DNA of 64,000 nucleotides, taken from assembly GCF_029953265.1 (NCBI RefSeq), contig NZ_JASBAO010000001.1, positions 806,001 to 870,000 on the forward strand. Reading direction: 5' to 3'. Of this stretch, positions 5,366 through 11,712 are shown piece after piece (position 1 is the first letter of the stretch; every line of letters starts with the position of its first letter). The position numbers and the translations under genes are program-made. The DNA is from Commensalibacter oyaizuii (GTDB taxonomy: Bacteria > Pseudomonadota > Alphaproteobacteria > Acetobacterales > Acetobacteraceae). Below the pieces are notes generated by a model. That model was not told the DNA's origin. It was given only the letters and a program-made list of their open reading frames with translations, and made no database searches.

Positions 5366-6697
5366 ATGAAATTTAAATTTTTACCTTCTATTTTTATCCT
5401 ATATTGTTGTTTCGTATATTCCCCCGTATCTTTTGCAAATACATATACCATTCAACGTACCCCTATTTGGCAAAGTAGTACAAACACGTCCACCCAACAG
5501 TTTATTATCTCAGGATCAGAAAATAACTATACTATTTCTTTAATTTTGATGCCTCAGCGTTATGCTATTCTACAAGTTTACACACAACGAAAAGATCAAC
5601 TCCTAAATCATACTGCTCTAACACTGACATTGACTATAGGGCAGCAAATTATAAAACTTCCTAAATCAACTCTTAACATGAGACCTGGTTACTTGATTTT
5701 TAACAAAAGCCTTTCAATTATACAACTCAAGGAGTTTTTGCATGAACTGACATCAAAAGATACCGCCTATATTACCTATAACCACGATATTATTCCTGTT
5801 TCATTGGCGGGAACCAGTAAAGTTGTAACTGCTTTACTTAAGTATATTAACGACCATAATATCAGTAACTTACCTACTCCTTTTACCCAAGAACGTAATT
5901 TTATAACTTCATTTTATTTTCCTAGTATTTCCGAAAGTAAAAATAAACTATTATATGGTATGGGTGTATTGACTCTGTTGTTTTTCTTAACGAAACCATG
6001 CTGGAAATTATGCAAAAAATTACTAATTCTATTGATTTTTTATTATAAAAGAAGAAAAGCCACAAAAATTGCTAATCGTGAAATACAAAAATACGCAAAA
6101 ATATTATATATTAGAAGGGATCAATTAATTTATACTGATGAATATGGTTCATTAATAAAAGATAAGTGGTTCCAAGAAATTAATCGTTTTATCAAAACAA
6201 AAATAAAACCTCTTTTACACGAAACAAAATTAGAATCTTTCTACCCTTACATTCAAAAATCAATTTTTAAGACAATTGTTCAAACAGCCAAAAACTTTCC
6301 TCGCTCTGCCAATCAGAAAGTTAAGAGTAAAAATAAACAACGTCATATATATTCTCCGAAAATGAAACCCTTAGATTACGAAGCATATTGCGCTGATCTA
6401 TTATGTCAAATTGGATGGGATGCACAAGTTACAACAGCAAGTGGTGATCAAGGTGCAGATGTGATTGCTATGAAAAATGATGTTATCCTTATTCTGCAGT
6501 GCAAATTATACAGCAAGCCTGTCGGTAATAAAGCCGTTCAAGAGGTGAATGCTGCCAAAAGTTTTTACCATGCCCATTATACTGCTGTTGTATCTAATGC
6601 ACCGTATACAACGTCTGCTCGACAACTCGCATCTTCTACCCATGTTGCTTTACTTCACCATGAGTTATTACAAGAATTTGCACTTTCGTTACGTTAA
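5366..6697 (+). CDS. Membrane-anchored protein with a C-terminal Mrr-type restriction endonuclease domain
   Basis: 443 residues in three parts. The first about 25 residues are a Sec signal (hydrophobic core ending PVSFA) leading into an exported domain of roughly 165 residues with no recognised family. A transmembrane segment near residues 193-225 is followed by Lys/Arg-rich sequence, placing the C-terminus in the cytoplasm. The last 95 residues form an Mrr/type IV restriction fold (PLDYEAYCADLL, then GDQGADV, then LQCK), with catalytic Asp365 and Gln378-X-Lys380 in the expected PD-(D/E)xK arrangement. Mrr proteins cut modified or foreign DNA. A nuclease tethered to the membrane suggests action on incoming DNA, which is my inference. 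No methylase or helicase partner is adjacent. It lies in an AT-rich, gene-poor accessory region. Confidence 0.8.
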   Translation: MKFKFLPSIFILYCCFVYSPVSFANTYTIQRTPIWQSSTNTSTQQFIISGSENNYTISLILMPQRYAILQVYTQRKDQLLNHTALTLTLTIGQQIIKLPKSTLNMRPGYLIFNKSLSIIQLKEFLHELTSKDTAYITYNHDIIPVSLAGTSKVVTALLKYINDHNISNLPTPFTQERNFITSFYFPSISESKNKLLYGMGVLTLLFFLTKPCWKLCKKLLILLIFYYKRRKATKIANREIQKYAKILYIRRDQLIYTDEYGSLIKDKWFQEINRFIKTKIKPLLHETKLESFYPYIQKSIFKTIVQTAKNFPRSANQKVKSKNKQRHIYSPKMKPLDYEAYCADLLCQIGWDAQVTTASGDQGADVIAMKNDVILILQCKLYSKPVGNKAVQEVNAAKSFYHAHYTAVVSNAPYTTSARQLASSTHVALLHHELLQEFALSLR

Positions 6698-7026
6698 ACT
6701 ACATTTCTGGTATCTTAACCAACTAAATTTTTAATATTTAATAAAATACCTATAGTATTAGCCATCCCGCTTTTGTCCTCTGATAAAAATAAATACCATT
6801 CATACTAATAATAATTGTCGCCTTTTGAATAATTTCGTATTTATACGACAAAATAAGAGCGGGTAAAAAATATTTTTAAGTTACTGAATATAACTTTTAC
6901 AAATTACCAAGCATAATACTATAATCAGTATCAAATCTTCTTCCACTAAATTTGAAAGAAATACCTGCTATATTCATAATAAAACAACAAAATTTATAAA
7001 TATTACTATGATTTTCTATAAAAAAA
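6698..7026. other. AT-rich intergenic stretch without a recognisable gene
   Basis: This is very AT-rich non-coding sequence between the Mrr-like gene and the hairpin at 7027-7065. Only short, stop-interrupted frames are seen on both strands. I see no RNA gene or clear promoter. Confidence 0.5.
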
Positions 7027-7065
7027 ACTTACATCTAATTTATTTATTATAAATTAGATGTAAGT
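7027..7065 (-). terminator. 16-bp perfect palindromic hairpin with T-tract on the minus strand
   Basis: Arms 7027-7042 and 7050-7065 are perfectly complementary around a 7-base loop. On the minus strand the stem is followed by a run of T (the A-tract at 7020-7027), giving a terminator shape for leftward transcription from the SanA/YdcF-like gene, about 275 bases downstream of its stop. The unusually long stem could instead be a mobile repeat end. Confidence 0.5.
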
Positions 7066-7339
7066 AAACATAGTGTAAATGCGTAAATATACAGATAGAA
7101 AAAGCAATCTGTAATAGTCAATATACCACCCTTTGAAATAAAGTAAATAGCAAATACTACTTTTACGATTAACTATTATGTCATAATAAATTGTATTCTC
7201 TAGCTATTTTTTTCTATCGAGATAATAACTATTTTTAAAACCTATGGTTGTAAAAATTACAATATTAAAATGGTTAACTACTCACAAATATAATGTTATC
7301 AATAATAGTTATATAAAAGTAAGTAAAATCAAATTTTAT

Positions 7340-7921
7340 TTATTTCAAACGAAAATAATAAAATACATACCCCATCATTTCCCTAGGAACTTTTACAAAA
7401 TCTTCCCAAGTAAAGTAAAAAGGTGCAGCGTTGCCCAAACACTTAACTCCAGCCATGTTAAAAGCTAATTTAATACGCGCAATATGATAATATTGAGAAA
7501 TAACAATAGCACATTTCATATGATGATCATTCATGTATATTGCTGTATTTTGCGCAGTTGCACGTGTATTCACCCCTTTCCCGTCATTTATAATGTTCTT
7601 TTCAGGGATACCATGATCTATCAAATATTGTTTCATCACAACAGATTCATCATGTCCCTCTATACCTGTTCCACCGCTAACCAAAATGTAAGGAGCATAA
7701 CCGTCATCATATATTCTTATGGCCTCATTCAAACGTGCAACCAACGCTTCGCTCGGATCGCCGTCCGGAAAAACTTTATTACCCAGAACAACAATTAAAT
7801 CAGCATTGAATGTATTATTACGCAAACCACATACAATTACTGACAAAACCAAAAATACAAAAACAAAGAAAATAGCTGCAAGCCACTTTTTTTTATGATT
7901 TAGAACCATAGGAAAATCCAT
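7340..7921 (-). CDS. SanA/ElyC/YdcF family (DUF218) membrane-anchored protein
   Basis: 193 residues: an N-terminal membrane anchor (about residues 13-34), then a DUF218 Rossmann-like domain. It shows the family signature LIVVLGNKVFPDGDPS, the YILVSGGTGIEGHDES loop and CAIVISQYYHIARI. E. coli SanA, ElyC and YdcF, which share this fold, affect envelope barrier function; the biochemical reaction is not settled. The C-terminus (PREMMGYVFYYF) is typical of SanA-like members. It is a single gene read leftward, with 117 bases to the divergent GNAT gene. The ATG at 7919-7921 has no strong ribosome site, so the in-frame MVLNHKKK start a few codons on is also possible. The family is certain and the function open. 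Confidence 0.85.
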   Translation of the reverse strand: MDFPMVLNHKKKWLAAIFFVFVFLVLSVIVCGLRNNTFNADLIVVLGNKVFPDGDPSEALVARLNEAIRIYDDGYAPYILVSGGTGIEGHDESVVMKQYLIDHGIPEKNIINDGKGVNTRATAQNTAIYMNDHHMKCAIVISQYYHIARIKLAFNMAGVKCLGNAAPFYFTWEDFVKVPREMMGYVFYYFRLK

Positions 7922-8557: not shown

Positions 8558-8738
8558 ACGACAAGTTACCTCGCAACGATAGGTAAATCTAAATCACATA
8601 TTATATATACTTTTGGTAAACATGCCTAATGGCATAATATCTTGCCCACAATCATTATGGTACGTTCTGGTTTAAAAAAATTATTCCTACCTTACACAAA
8701 ATCATTTTTCATCATAATTCATCGCTTGGTTTAAATTA

Positions 8739-8752
8739 AGGAATTTATTCCT
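8739..8752. promoter_or_regulatory. Candidate repressor operator O1 upstream of the XRE/S24 gene
   Basis: The near-palindrome AGGAA-TTTA-TTCCT lies three bases before a TATAAT box (8756-8761) that probably serves the repressor gene. The same GGAA-N4-TTCC pattern recurs at 9605-9618 and 9635-9648. Autoregulation is the obvious inference. Confidence 0.5.
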
Positions 8753-8818
8753 ATTTATAATAAATATCGGAATAAAAGACGAATGACATAAGCGAATAAA
8801 TATGAGTAAAAATGTTCT

Positions 8819-9598
8819 ATGAAAAACCAAGTTTTACTAGATAAAATACATAATATTCTTAAAGAAAAACAGGTAAAACCTAGTCGAGCAGGTATTAATG
8901 CAGGATTAGGTCCTGATTTTATCAGAAAACTTAAAAACGCCAAAAATTCACCCAAGGCAGAAAATCTTTTTAAATTAGCAAAAGCATTAAATATAGACGT
9001 TAATTATTTTTTAGATCCCATTGACCAATCCGTTCAAAAGGAATTGCAAAATCAACCTGTTCATAATGAGAATGACGAAGATACAGAGATATATGCCATA
9101 CCTACAGAGACAATTTATGTTCGAGGCGAACTGAATGCAAAACAATGGAAGAAGAATAAAGATTGGCCTCCATCTAGATATATCCCCTTAACAATACCAA
9201 AAGATTCTAGATTCTTATCCACTTCTCGTTATGGATTAATCATCAAAGATGATTCTATGAATTTGCTCTATCCCACAGGATCAATAGTAATCGTCACCCC
9301 TTTTCAAGAATTAGAACGTTTACCAGAAAATGGCGACTGCGTCGTTGTAACTAAACATGATTCTTTATATAGTCATTATGAAATGACATTAAAAATTGTT
9401 CAAATCAGGGAAAACGGACAGTTCTTTCTGTGGCCAAAAAGTGACAATCCTGAGTTTTTACAACCAATTATTCTGCCAAAACCAACCCTTAAGCATTATA
9501 GTAATACCTTAATCGGTAATTTGGACGATCCACCTACAATTGAAATACAAGCACTGGTTACTGGTTGCTATAACATAGTCGAGAAAATATCTTTTTAG
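8819..9598 (+). CDS. Phage-type transcriptional repressor, XRE helix-turn-helix with S24 peptidase-like domain
   Basis: 259 residues. Residues about 5-66 form an XRE/Cro-type DNA-binding domain (SRAGINAGLGPDFIRKLKNAK is the recognition part). A linker leads to an S24/LexA-like domain with Ser146 in KDDSM and Lys192 in MTLKIV, the expected Ser-Lys dyad. In relatives the cleavage region reads GEV-Q-AG-VW; here it is GELNAKQW, so the Ala-Gly bond is Ala107-Lys108. RecA-triggered self-cleavage may thus be weakened or lost. The ATG at 8819 overlaps the TGA of a 6-codon upstream frame (MSKNVL, 8802-8822), which could couple translation. It is flanked by GGAA-N4-TTCC palindromes likely to be its operators. 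There are no phage genes next to it, so it is an orphan or domesticated repressor. Confidence 0.88.
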   Translation: MKNQVLLDKIHNILKEKQVKPSRAGINAGLGPDFIRKLKNAKNSPKAENLFKLAKALNIDVNYFLDPIDQSVQKELQNQPVHNENDEDTEIYAIPTETIYVRGELNAKQWKKNKDWPPSRYIPLTIPKDSRFLSTSRYGLIIKDDSMNLLYPTGSIVIVTPFQELERLPENGDCVVVTKHDSLYSHYEMTLKIVQIRENGQFFLWPKSDNPEFLQPIILPKPTLKHYSNTLIGNLDDPPTIEIQALVTGCYNIVEKISF

Positions 9599-9604
9599 CA
9601 AAAT

Positions 9605-9618
9605 AGGAAATAATTCCT
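9605..9618. promoter_or_regulatory. Candidate repressor operator O2
   Basis: AGGAA-ATAA-TTCCT, embedded in larger 8-base arms (9602-9609 and 9614-9621), begins seven bases after the repressor stop codon and just upstream of the -35 at 9628. It matches the pattern of O1 and O3. Confidence 0.5.
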
Positions 9619-9627
9619 ATTAAATAA

Positions 9628-9656
9628 TTGATTTTGGAAAATTTTCCATATATAAT
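9628..9656 (+). promoter_or_regulatory. Sigma70-type promoter for the downstream structured RNA
   Basis: TTGATT at 9628-9633 and TATAAT at 9651-9656 are separated by exactly 17 bases. Transcription would start near 9662-9665. The spacer contains the perfect palindrome at 9635-9648, so a bound repressor would block polymerase. Confidence 0.65.
9635..9648. promoter_or_regulatory. Candidate repressor operator O3 inside the promoter spacer
   Basis: The perfect 14-bp palindrome TGGAAAATTTTCCA sits between the -35 and -10. It has the same GGAA-N4-TTCC core as the sites at 8739 and 9605 and the same placement just ahead of a TATAAT box as O1. Confidence 0.55.
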
Positions 9657-9662
9657 TTATAA

Positions 9663-9750
9663 ACCACGCAACTCGGGAGGATATAGATGTATATTATTAT
9701 CCCAGCTTGAGCATCTATCAGGATAATTTCATTTATCCGCCTCCCTTCTT
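9663..9750 (+). ncRNA. Candidate structured RNA or leader with a three-way junction
   Basis: Three stems nest tightly. The outer stem is 9674-9679 (GGGAGG) with 9739-9744 (CCTCCC), hairpin A is 9682-9688 with 9711-9717, and hairpin B is 9720-9725 with 9732-9737. Linkers are only one or two bases. A 7-codon frame, MYIIIPA (9686-9709), starts six bases after GGAGG, so the outer stem would hide its ribosome site. It may be a small RNA or a regulated leader peptide. The 3' end is uncertain because no U-tract terminator follows closely. No known RNA family is recognised. Confidence 0.45.
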
Positions 9751-10142: not shown

Positions 10143-10233
10143 GGAGAGATGGCCGAGCGGTTTAAGGCGCACGCTTGGAAAGCGTGTGTGCGTTAATAGC
10201 GTACCATGGGTTCGAATCCCATTCTCTCCGCCA
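10143..10233 (+). tRNA. tRNA-Ser (anticodon GGA)
   Basis: A class II tRNA with a 7-bp acceptor stem (10143-10149 with 10223-10229), discriminator G and encoded CCA (10231-10233). The anticodon loop is TTGGAAA, giving GGA, and it has the long variable arm of serine tRNAs and a TTCGAAT T-loop. It decodes UCC and UCU. Its 3' half is nearly identical to the tRNA-Ser on the opposite strand at 11622-11712. Confidence 0.96.
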
Positions 10234-10529
10234 TAAAGTAATATAACGTATCGCTTTGACAATTTACCTTTAAACTAAAAGTTTTTTTCAATACAAAATC
10301 TATTTCGCTATATTTTGTTATTAACATAAGGCACAAGACGAAAAGATTTAGTTACATTATGTAATTCCAAACAATTATTATAGTTTTCTGTTGTGGTCAA
10401 ACCTTTTATCTGAAGGGCTTGATCTTATTGTTTCGGTTGTTATAATTAATTTATATTTCTAACATTGGTAAATTTCTAACAATTTCATTAATTTTAAAGC
10501 TGACAATAAATACACATAAAAAAACTCTA

Positions 10530-11319
10530 AAAGATATTTTGCATTTTTTATGGTCTCGATTGCCCAGTCACTAGCATTGTTTGTAATCTCTGTTTTTTTA
10601 TTATCAATAACACTTTGGCTTTTCGTAACCCTTTCAGAAGCAGATTTACCATTGACAATAGAATCATATGCTACCTTTGAAATATTTGTAATGCTGTAAT
10701 GTGCTTATAAATAACGGCAATTTGACATCTTTTTACCAACTTTATTATCAGGGCAAATAGTAAATCTATTAATCTCTATGCAACTGTCTCGCGTCCACTC
10801 GCTCATACTTTAACTAGACAATGACGAGCTAGAAACTAAATATAACACCATTATTACGTGTCCAGCCATCACCACAACGATTTATCATCAACGTTACTCT
10901 GCATCAAAAGCCATTTTTTTAATCTTGCAATATCTTTTAAGGCTTTCTCAGCATATTTTATCTATTTATTCGTTGCTGTCATTATAATATAATGAGAAAA
11001 ATATTTCTTGCCTGATGCTGTAAAAAACTGTCTATTTGGCTTTATCTAGTCTATAATTTACGTTGAACGACATGATATTTATATCTAACGTTACTGCAAC
11101 TAGGTCTATTCCAACATTGCTCTCGTTAGTAACGTTTAACTCATTCCCACGATTAACCACCCAATCAACATTAAATAGAGCATCTATATATTATCTTTTA
11201 CAATGAGATTTTGTTTTTAAAATATTGCACTATCAGGTAATTAAAACTGGCTCCTTAGCTTCTTTAATTTCTTGTTTGTTGACAGAATGTGCAAGTAAAT
11301 TTTGTAATGCTATGGGCAT
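10530..11319 (-). pseudogene. Heavily decayed protein gene between two tRNA-Ser genes
   Basis: Minus-strand fragments read in order but in shifting frames. ATG at 11317-11319 gives MPIALQNLLAHSVNKQEIKE and ends at TGA 11233-11235. Then comes ALFNVDWVVNRGNELNVTNE leading to SNVGIDLVAVTLDI. Next, after a frame change, RQFFTASGKKYFSHYI, then a stop, then AEKALKDIARLKKW. Then SEWTRDSCIEINRF, and last SIVNGKSASERVTKSQSV continuing to TNNASDWAIETIKNAK. At least five stops or frameshifts separate them. The original protein would have been about 260 residues. I do not recognise the family. Its location next to tRNA genes suits an old integrated element. Confidence 0.6.
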
Positions 11320-11621
11320 AGGGATAGTTTTAGATCAAAAGTAATATAGAAAAAAGATAAATGTTTTCTGATCTTGCCATATCGCATGAAAACTCTATGA
11401 ATACAAATTACAGTTTTATCTAAAAGATTATAGTGAACTTAATTATCCCCTTTACGAAAACCGCTTTCAAAATAAATGTCCCTCTTACGTTCTCAACTAT
11501 CTTAACATTCTAGTAATTATAAAAAATAATAGAAGGTTCTAAACTTATAAATAAAATGCTTAAAGAAAGCATGTTTTTAAAAGAATCATATTTAATTTTA
11601 TGGGGGTAATATTGTATAAAA

Positions 11622-11712
<91 letters not shown>

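Follow-up and report, generated by a model that had tools for sequence, protein, structure and literature searches.

A putative minimised lambda-type immunity module with the rest of its phage gone in a Commensalibacter chromosome

A 64 kb stretch of the Commensalibacter oyaizuii chromosome (64,000 nucleotides, called the window below) probably contains a minimised lambda-type immunity module of the form OR-cI-OL/PL-leader, with the rest of the phage gone. We put the probability of this reading at about 0.78. What this insect-gut bacterium seems to retain is a one-kilobase remnant of a lost virus, and the cassette, which is known from one strain, has possibly been domesticated. An intact repressor frame, three operator-like sites, a promoter consensus, an RNA fold and a like geometry in relatives were read from the sequence. 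What remains unusual is the reduction to a repressor, two-sided operators and a PL leader, together with a leader RNA family, R1, in the relatives. The features of the cassette are as follows.

8740..8751, no strand: OR-like operator GGAATTTATTCC, 79 bp upstream of the repressor ATG; third in the window by score with the C. communis matrix
8756..8761, plus strand: TATAAT box of the putative repressor promoter, read from the sequence; no good -35
8819..9598, plus strand: XRE/S24 (CI-like) repressor of 259 aa with Peptidase_S24, HTH_3 and PHROG matches
9606..9617, no strand: OL2-like operator GGAAATAATTCC, top-scoring site of the window by the C. communis matrix
9628..9656, plus strand: PL-like promoter TTGATT-17-TATAAT, 10 of 12 consensus matches
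9636..9647, no strand: OL1-like operator GGAAAATTTTCC, within the spacer of the PL-like promoter
9675..9745, plus strand: predicted core of the leader RNA, a three-way junction that has two hairpins and a closing GGGAGG/CCUCCC helix

The repressor

The frame at 8819..9598 is intact, and its product combines an XRE HTH domain with an S24 C-terminal domain, as lambda-type CI proteins do. Peptidase_S24 was matched at E=2.4e-8, HTH_3 at 22.7 bits, just under the cut-off of 23, and the PHROG repressor family at E=1.6e-15, which confirmed the XRE/S24 identity proposed for the gene in the original prediction. Ser146 and Lys192, which we take from family knowledge to be the active-site serine and lysine, are invariant among the 12 aligned repressor proteins.

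Lambda-type CI repressors undergo RecA-stimulated self-cleavage at an Ala-Gly or Cys-Gly dipeptide. Neither dipeptide is present at the usual place, 107-108, in the window repressor, which has Ala-Lys there; its sister (L002/L056) has Ser-Lys, and the other ten aligned relatives have Ala-Gly (8) or Ala-Ser (2). Because Ala-Gly is replaced by Ala-Lys, the sequence suggests that RecA-stimulated self-cleavage at 107-108 has been lost, and induction by RecA may have been lost with it; this assessment covers the dipeptide 107-108 alone, and cleavage elsewhere is possible. In Gifsy-type prophages the repressor is released by an antirepressor. A repressor without self-cleavage needs another route of induction there, as it would here (excerpt of PMC3121763), but an antirepressor gene was not recognised at the window locus.

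The closest repressor, with 54% identity, is encoded on a phage-like 4.9 kb contig of Commensalibacter communis LMG 31819 (contig 21, locus L056). The two proteins pair in the repressor tree with support of 100/100, in a tree where the L056 branch was flagged as long by the program and 8 of the 11 inner branches are open. Protein searches gave three matches in phage records (best 29.5% identity) and one in plasmids, and nothing beyond a 76-residue HTH protein among solved structures. Viral contigs gave no match to the single repressor protein; searched with the repressor alignment A1, they gave 28 loci, with L097-L099 above 40% identity.

The tree also bears on the idea that the gene is a non-phage local regulator, stranded from a lost bacteriocin-like locus with GG-leader peptide genes. 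Paralogues at L003, L005 and L010 are followed by genes beginning MREIS, as at such a locus, but these repressors fall outside the window/L056 pair, their operators, read by eye, are of another type (AAGG-N8-CCTT), and the sister repressor at L056 has the OL/PL leader plan. We regard this origin as improbable.

At L010 (313-1165, minus strand) and at the downstream ends of L003 and L005, the S24 paralogues have the Ala-Gly intact and adjoin the MREIS genes. MREIS is followed by AGG in L005 and L010, and the products resemble double-glycine-leader bacteriocin precursors. The two L010 proteins had no match in Pfam. The three loci are possibly SOS-controlled bacteriocin loci.

Operators on both sides of the repressor gene

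Exactly three GGAA-N4-TTCC sites, at 8740-8751, 9606-9617 and 9636-9647, were found in the 64 kb window. They are the three palindromes of the original prediction, where one more flanking base was counted on each side (8739-8752, 9605-9618 and 9635-9648). The two OL-like sites are 30 bp apart and directly 3' of the repressor stop; as 14-mers they start 7 and 37 bp after it.

The number of bare motifs is not rare and not significant. Shuffling gave 1.25 expected sites per window and at least three sites in 15 of 100 shuffles, and the whole genome has 46 sites against 45 for a reversed-pattern control. What is unusual in the three palindromes is their clustering at one gene and their quality as sites. 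A matrix built solely from the two sites flanking the L056 repressor of C. communis ranked exactly these three highest in the 64 kb window, at 20.0, 17.4 and 12.6 bits, with the next-best site at 11.9 bits. Two sites of at least 17.3 bits occurred in none of 300 shuffles. Sites scoring as high as the upstream operator occurred 1.25 times per shuffle, which is chance level, so that the upstream operator rests on its conserved position and not on its score.

This position is found again at L056, which has GGAA-N4-TTCC 80 bp before the ATG and a second copy inside a TTGACA promoter, 34 bp past the stop. The corresponding distances in the window are 79 bp from OR to ATG and 37 bp from the stop to OL, measured to the start of the 14-mer. 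L056 has one full OL site, whereas the window has two; the second lies 30 bp upstream of the first, and a prophage of C. intestini likewise has one at 30 bp. With the independent C. communis matrix and the like geometry in relatives, chance palindromes were rejected. The sites are very probably operators of the XRE/S24 repressor, as had been proposed, judging from the like sites at like distances in the sister locus and from the OR and OL sequences of six systems, which match best within their own system.

A wider regulon is disfavoured. The genome has 43 other GGAA-N4-TTCC sites, of which 20, chosen for A/T-rich centres, were read, and 18 of these lie inside open frames of at least 60 codons, L130 and L135 being the exceptions. 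Three of the 20 (L127, L129 and L136) outscore the upstream operator and L135 scores just below it; these may be a few further targets of the repressor.

The same plan in other Commensalibacter phage systems

Five other Commensalibacter phage systems share the OR-repressor-OL/PL-leader plan, with operator sequences that differ by system; those of L090 are of an AGGTA type. Further leaders were sought with the promoter and leader DNA of L056 as a query. A matching operator in a leader promoter about 1 kb 3' of a prophage repressor was found at L090 (the organism's own genome), L060 (C. intestini), L061 (C. communis) and L099 (a viral contig). L060 and L090 were found by a query that contained the L056 OL site itself, which matches them mainly in TTGACA and leader letters; in the operator itself they depart from the query and agree with the OR of the respective repressor. 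The repressors and the leader core pattern led to L061 and L099.

The OR site lies 79-81 bp before the ATG in five of the six systems, and 46 bp before it in own2094, while the leader core follows the OL site at 40-46 bp in all six. When the six OR sets were combined with the six OL sets, window included, the own pairing had the lowest total distance; it was equalled by one other of the 720 assignments, a swap of two systems with like operators. The 2148k paralogue, with coordinates perhaps off by a few bases, enters no count. The comparison yields a series of repressor-operator pairs whose specificities differ and covary.

In the prophage at L090 the integrase is followed by the early operon, PL/OL, one gene, the repressor, OR and the divergent small gene, which is the lambda order. 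Its repressor (6552-7553, minus strand) has 333 aa, with seemingly two tandem HTH domains before S24.

Promoters and the window leader RNA

As the original prediction had described, the third palindrome sits within the spacer of a TTGATT-17-TATAAT promoter; this promoter, at 9628-9656, matches the consensus at 10 of 12 positions. Promoter-like sites as a class were not enriched in the scan (12 found against 10.3 expected). The upstream TATAAT (8756-8761) was not among them, nor was any minus-strand site over 8740-8751. The PL-like promoter has the same direction as the repressor gene and leads into a foldable RNA, so that the claim of a 3' palindrome pair at the promoter of such an RNA also held.

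The transcript is expected to start near 9663. The predicted fold of 9663-9748 has an energy of -22.7 kcal/mol (z -3.1 to -3.2), a value matched or beaten by one of 200 shuffles. A three-way junction appeared in 337 of 2000 shuffles, and a junction together with the observed energy in 5 of 2000. The core starts 77 nt after the repressor stop, against 80 in L056, with the same helix order.

The fold contains a GGAGG and an ATG at 9689 that open a frame of seven codons (MYIIIPA). GGAGG-N6-ATG is evident from the letters and the fold pairs the GGAGG, so the RNA could be imagined as a translational leader in which the GGGAGG pairing hides a ribosome site. We consider this very improbable: the frame has seven codons with nothing encoded behind it, and the leaders of the R1 family have a G-rich strand (GGGG or near) at the same position of the fold, so the look of a ribosome site may be incidental.

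A conserved leader RNA family in Commensalibacter prophages

The L056 OL promoter leads into a foldable leader (z about -3.6) that belongs to R1, a family located behind early promoters of Commensalibacter prophages. R1 leaders lie at L056 3255-3323, L060 7758-7851, L061 7865-7957 and L099 6708-6801 and, on the minus strand, at L090 5477-5572, L092 1506-1580 and L096 1537-1606. The phage region at L096 has another kind of repressor. In most members a hairpin, ATGAC...GTCAT, precedes the leader, with a length that varies on both sides (read by eye).

An alignment of six leaders (A7) has a consensus three-way junction of 16 pairs, of which five are changed on both sides, and 97.9% of its cells pair. 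Sliding the partners by one to three columns reduced the paired cells to 34-76%. The shuffle controls of A7 were not all strong: five double-changed pairs were reached in 42 of 500 shuffles and the number of pair types in 471 of 500, while the paired cells, the double-change cells and the covariation score were each reached in 0 of 500. Folded singly, L056, L096 and L060 gave z of -3.2 to -4.1, and L061, L090 and L092 gave -1.8, -1.0 and -0.7; in L060 and L090 the best single fold closes the junction in another way.

The covariance model R1 found the own-genome leader, which had been left out of the model, at E=3.7e-13, as the one strong match in that genome with 150 of 953 candidates scored. 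Over nine genomes of the genus, with 150 candidates scored per genome, it gave six strong matches, five of them training sequences, and the next match had E=0.066. Rfam gave no match to the leaders of L056, L090, L061, L092, L096 and L060; with the L056 leader alone, six matches appeared, all far below the cut-off. The comparison has revealed in R1 a conserved, covarying leader RNA of Commensalibacter prophages without an Rfam match or family. Literature on three-way-junction leader RNAs, by title or abstract start, contained nothing resembling R1, and neither did literature on C4 RNA among the matches listed; both searches fall short of proof of absence. A C4-like pairing of R1 leaders with the 150 nt behind them was rejected as a general trait: one of six beat the shuffles (Cint_c5, 2 of 300), and the other five were equalled by 91, 217, 231, 86 and 269 of 300.

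The window RNA shares with this family a three-way junction directly behind the OL promoter, but it has no significant match to the covariance model. With default filters and E up to 10, the model gave no match at 9675-9745 in the 64 kb. With filters off on 4 kb, the RNA scored 7.9 bits (E 0.68, rank 5 of 16), so homology by covariance model failed. Judged from position and topology, the window RNA is likely homologous to the R1 leaders; homology in sequence is unproven. The Rfam scan of the window gave two tRNAs only. The Rfam models, which presumably include C4 antisense RNA, gave one chance-level match in the RNA region when relaxed to E 10 (16.8 bits against a cut-off of 55). The DNA of the RNA had no other match at E <0.01 in 60 genomes, and its pattern had none in viral contigs. 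The window RNA is most likely a PL leader, either retained or in decay, behind which no gene is left.

At HK022 putL, a structured RNA of about 70 nt lies directly downstream of PL (PMC9378689), which is also the leader position of the window RNA. HK022 put RNA, which causes antitermination in cis through contact with RNA polymerase, folds into two stem-loops and has putR, located at PR, as its partner, whereas the window RNA is a closed three-way junction. Furthermore, no downstream gene is left in the window for transcription to read into.

Possible action of the RNA in trans

The RNA might instead be the second part of a working switch, in which the repressor silences a trans-acting small RNA that adds to the immunity at a second level or feeds back on the repressor. 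P1 C4 and P4 CI RNA are trans-acting small RNAs of this kind. The promoter, operators and fold are intact although no frame of more than 35 codons follows before the tRNA-Ser, and the quality of the fold against shuffles (1 of 200, and 5 of 2000 for junction plus energy) also speaks for such an RNA. Partners for it were not found. Pairing with the 5' end of the repressor message beat dinucleotide shuffles (3 of 1000 with the RNA shuffled, 9 of 1000 with the target), but 485 of 1062 real tiles paired as well, and 87 of 266 when the folding of both was included; an RNA antisense to its own repressor message was rejected, being good against shuffles and not against real sequence. Neither the 150 nt downstream (137 of 300 shuffles equally good) nor three L056 stretches (42, 228 and 136 of 300) showed any special pairing with the RNA. 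The lack of other DNA matches (60 genomes at E <0.01, and viral contigs by pattern) and of an Rfam family at threshold, with a relaxed match at chance level, also count against it. We consider such a switch unlikely.

A broader form of this idea, to which we give a similarly low chance, is a phage-free cassette kept by the host, in which a repressor uncleavable at the usual site holds down a trans-acting RNA, as a stand-alone protein-plus-RNA switch for superinfection immunity with an unrecognised leader-RNA family behind it. The self-contained switch of the original prediction remains unproven, given that no RNA partner and no other match to the RNA DNA were found and the divergent arm is missing.

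Comparison with lambda and possible function

The layout had been thought to have no described counterpart. This was not supported, because it is the OR-cI-OL/PL arrangement of lambda, whose immunity region has the order OL/PL - rexBA - cI - OR/PRM-PR. In both lambda and the window, the gene of a CI-like S24 repressor is flanked on either side by like operators (the upstream one in the window by position), and the 3' operators lie in a promoter co-directed with the repressor gene, with a leader RNA after it. Unlike lambda, the window locus has no divergent gene, N, rex or integrase, it has lost the Ala-Gly dipeptide, and its operators number one plus two, where lambda has three plus three. The two operator sets that lambda CI links are separated by about 2.3 kb, according to the excerpt of PMC5880393, compared with about 0.9 kb between the operators in the window.

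A divergent PR promoter with a cro-like gene was not found at the window OR. At L056 the OR site adjoins a divergent small gene of PHROG 7669, a family of unknown function, and L090 also has a divergent gene. The gene after the L056 leader has a weak match to a phage HTH family and no Pfam match; neither it nor the divergent gene has a counterpart at the window locus. No divergent frame of at least 50 aa was present in 8558-8740, and the divergent region upstream of OR had no convincing similarity to the fetched loci. Since the divergent PR/cro-like arm is absent, we regard the window cassette as a reduced module and not a full immunity region.

By analogy with the lambda family, the repressor would occupy the operator 79 bp ahead of its start codon and limit its own synthesis, and would also bind the pair of operators, 30 bp apart, that follows its stop. 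At this pair it would cover the spacer of the PL-like promoter and shut off the short structured leader RNA, and repressors bound at OL and OR could cooperate. In a phage-free cell, the useful effect would be immunity in trans to incoming phages with GGAA-N4-TTCC operators, and the cassette may thus protect against phages with like operators. As a module of this kind, the cassette shows how small a lambda-type immunity region can get while keeping two-sided operators and a PL leader, and it offers a ready test of whether bacteria retain such pieces for immunity.

In the literature on Commensalibacter prophages no such cassette was seen by title or abstract start among the matches listed, nor by title or abstract start in that on orphan or domesticated repressors with superinfection; neither is proof of absence. 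PMC10149009 counts prophages by species, and the word 'repressor' does not occur in its main text.

Genomic setting

The repressor had been called an orphan, and in appearance it is one: none of ten neighbouring proteins is a phage structural or integration gene in PHROGs, the families matched being UmuD-like, UmuC-like, acetyltransferase and nuclease-domain ones. A divergent small gene, a PR-like promoter, early genes and an integrase were not seen at the window locus. Phage debris was sought from the GNAT gene to OR and from the RNA to the tRNA-Ser, and was rejected, as the matches to the fetched loci were short (17-21 bases or 17 residues). The next gene is the tRNA-Ser, which starts about 0.4 kb after the RNA, with no same-strand frame of more than 35 codons between. 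All 15 matching phage records, and the 20 listed of 71 plasmid records, match the DNA at this tRNA-Ser only.

A gene with an Mrr domain adjoins this tRNA-Ser in four of the six sibling regions read (G003 and G008 were left out), at 0.1 to 0.15 kb in three and 2.0 kb in one. In the window the distance is 3.4 kb and holds a DUF218 gene, the GNAT gene and the cassette. The Mrr-domain gene of the window (5366-6697) codes for a 443-aa protein with a C-terminal Mrr_cat endonuclease domain, and is possibly a defence gene.

About 6 kb upstream of the cassette, at 910-2642, UmuD-like (S24) and UmuC-like genes overlap as an operon. On the other side, at 10143-11712, tRNA-Ser(GGA) and tRNA-Ser(TGA) lie 1.4 kb apart in opposite directions. 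In the six siblings that have the best matches to both on a single contig, the distance between them is 0.2 to 1.7 Mb, and this far wider spacing gives the region the look of a rearrangement point. Behind tRNA-Ser(GGA), the DNA of some siblings, read by eye, resembles decayed integrase starts.
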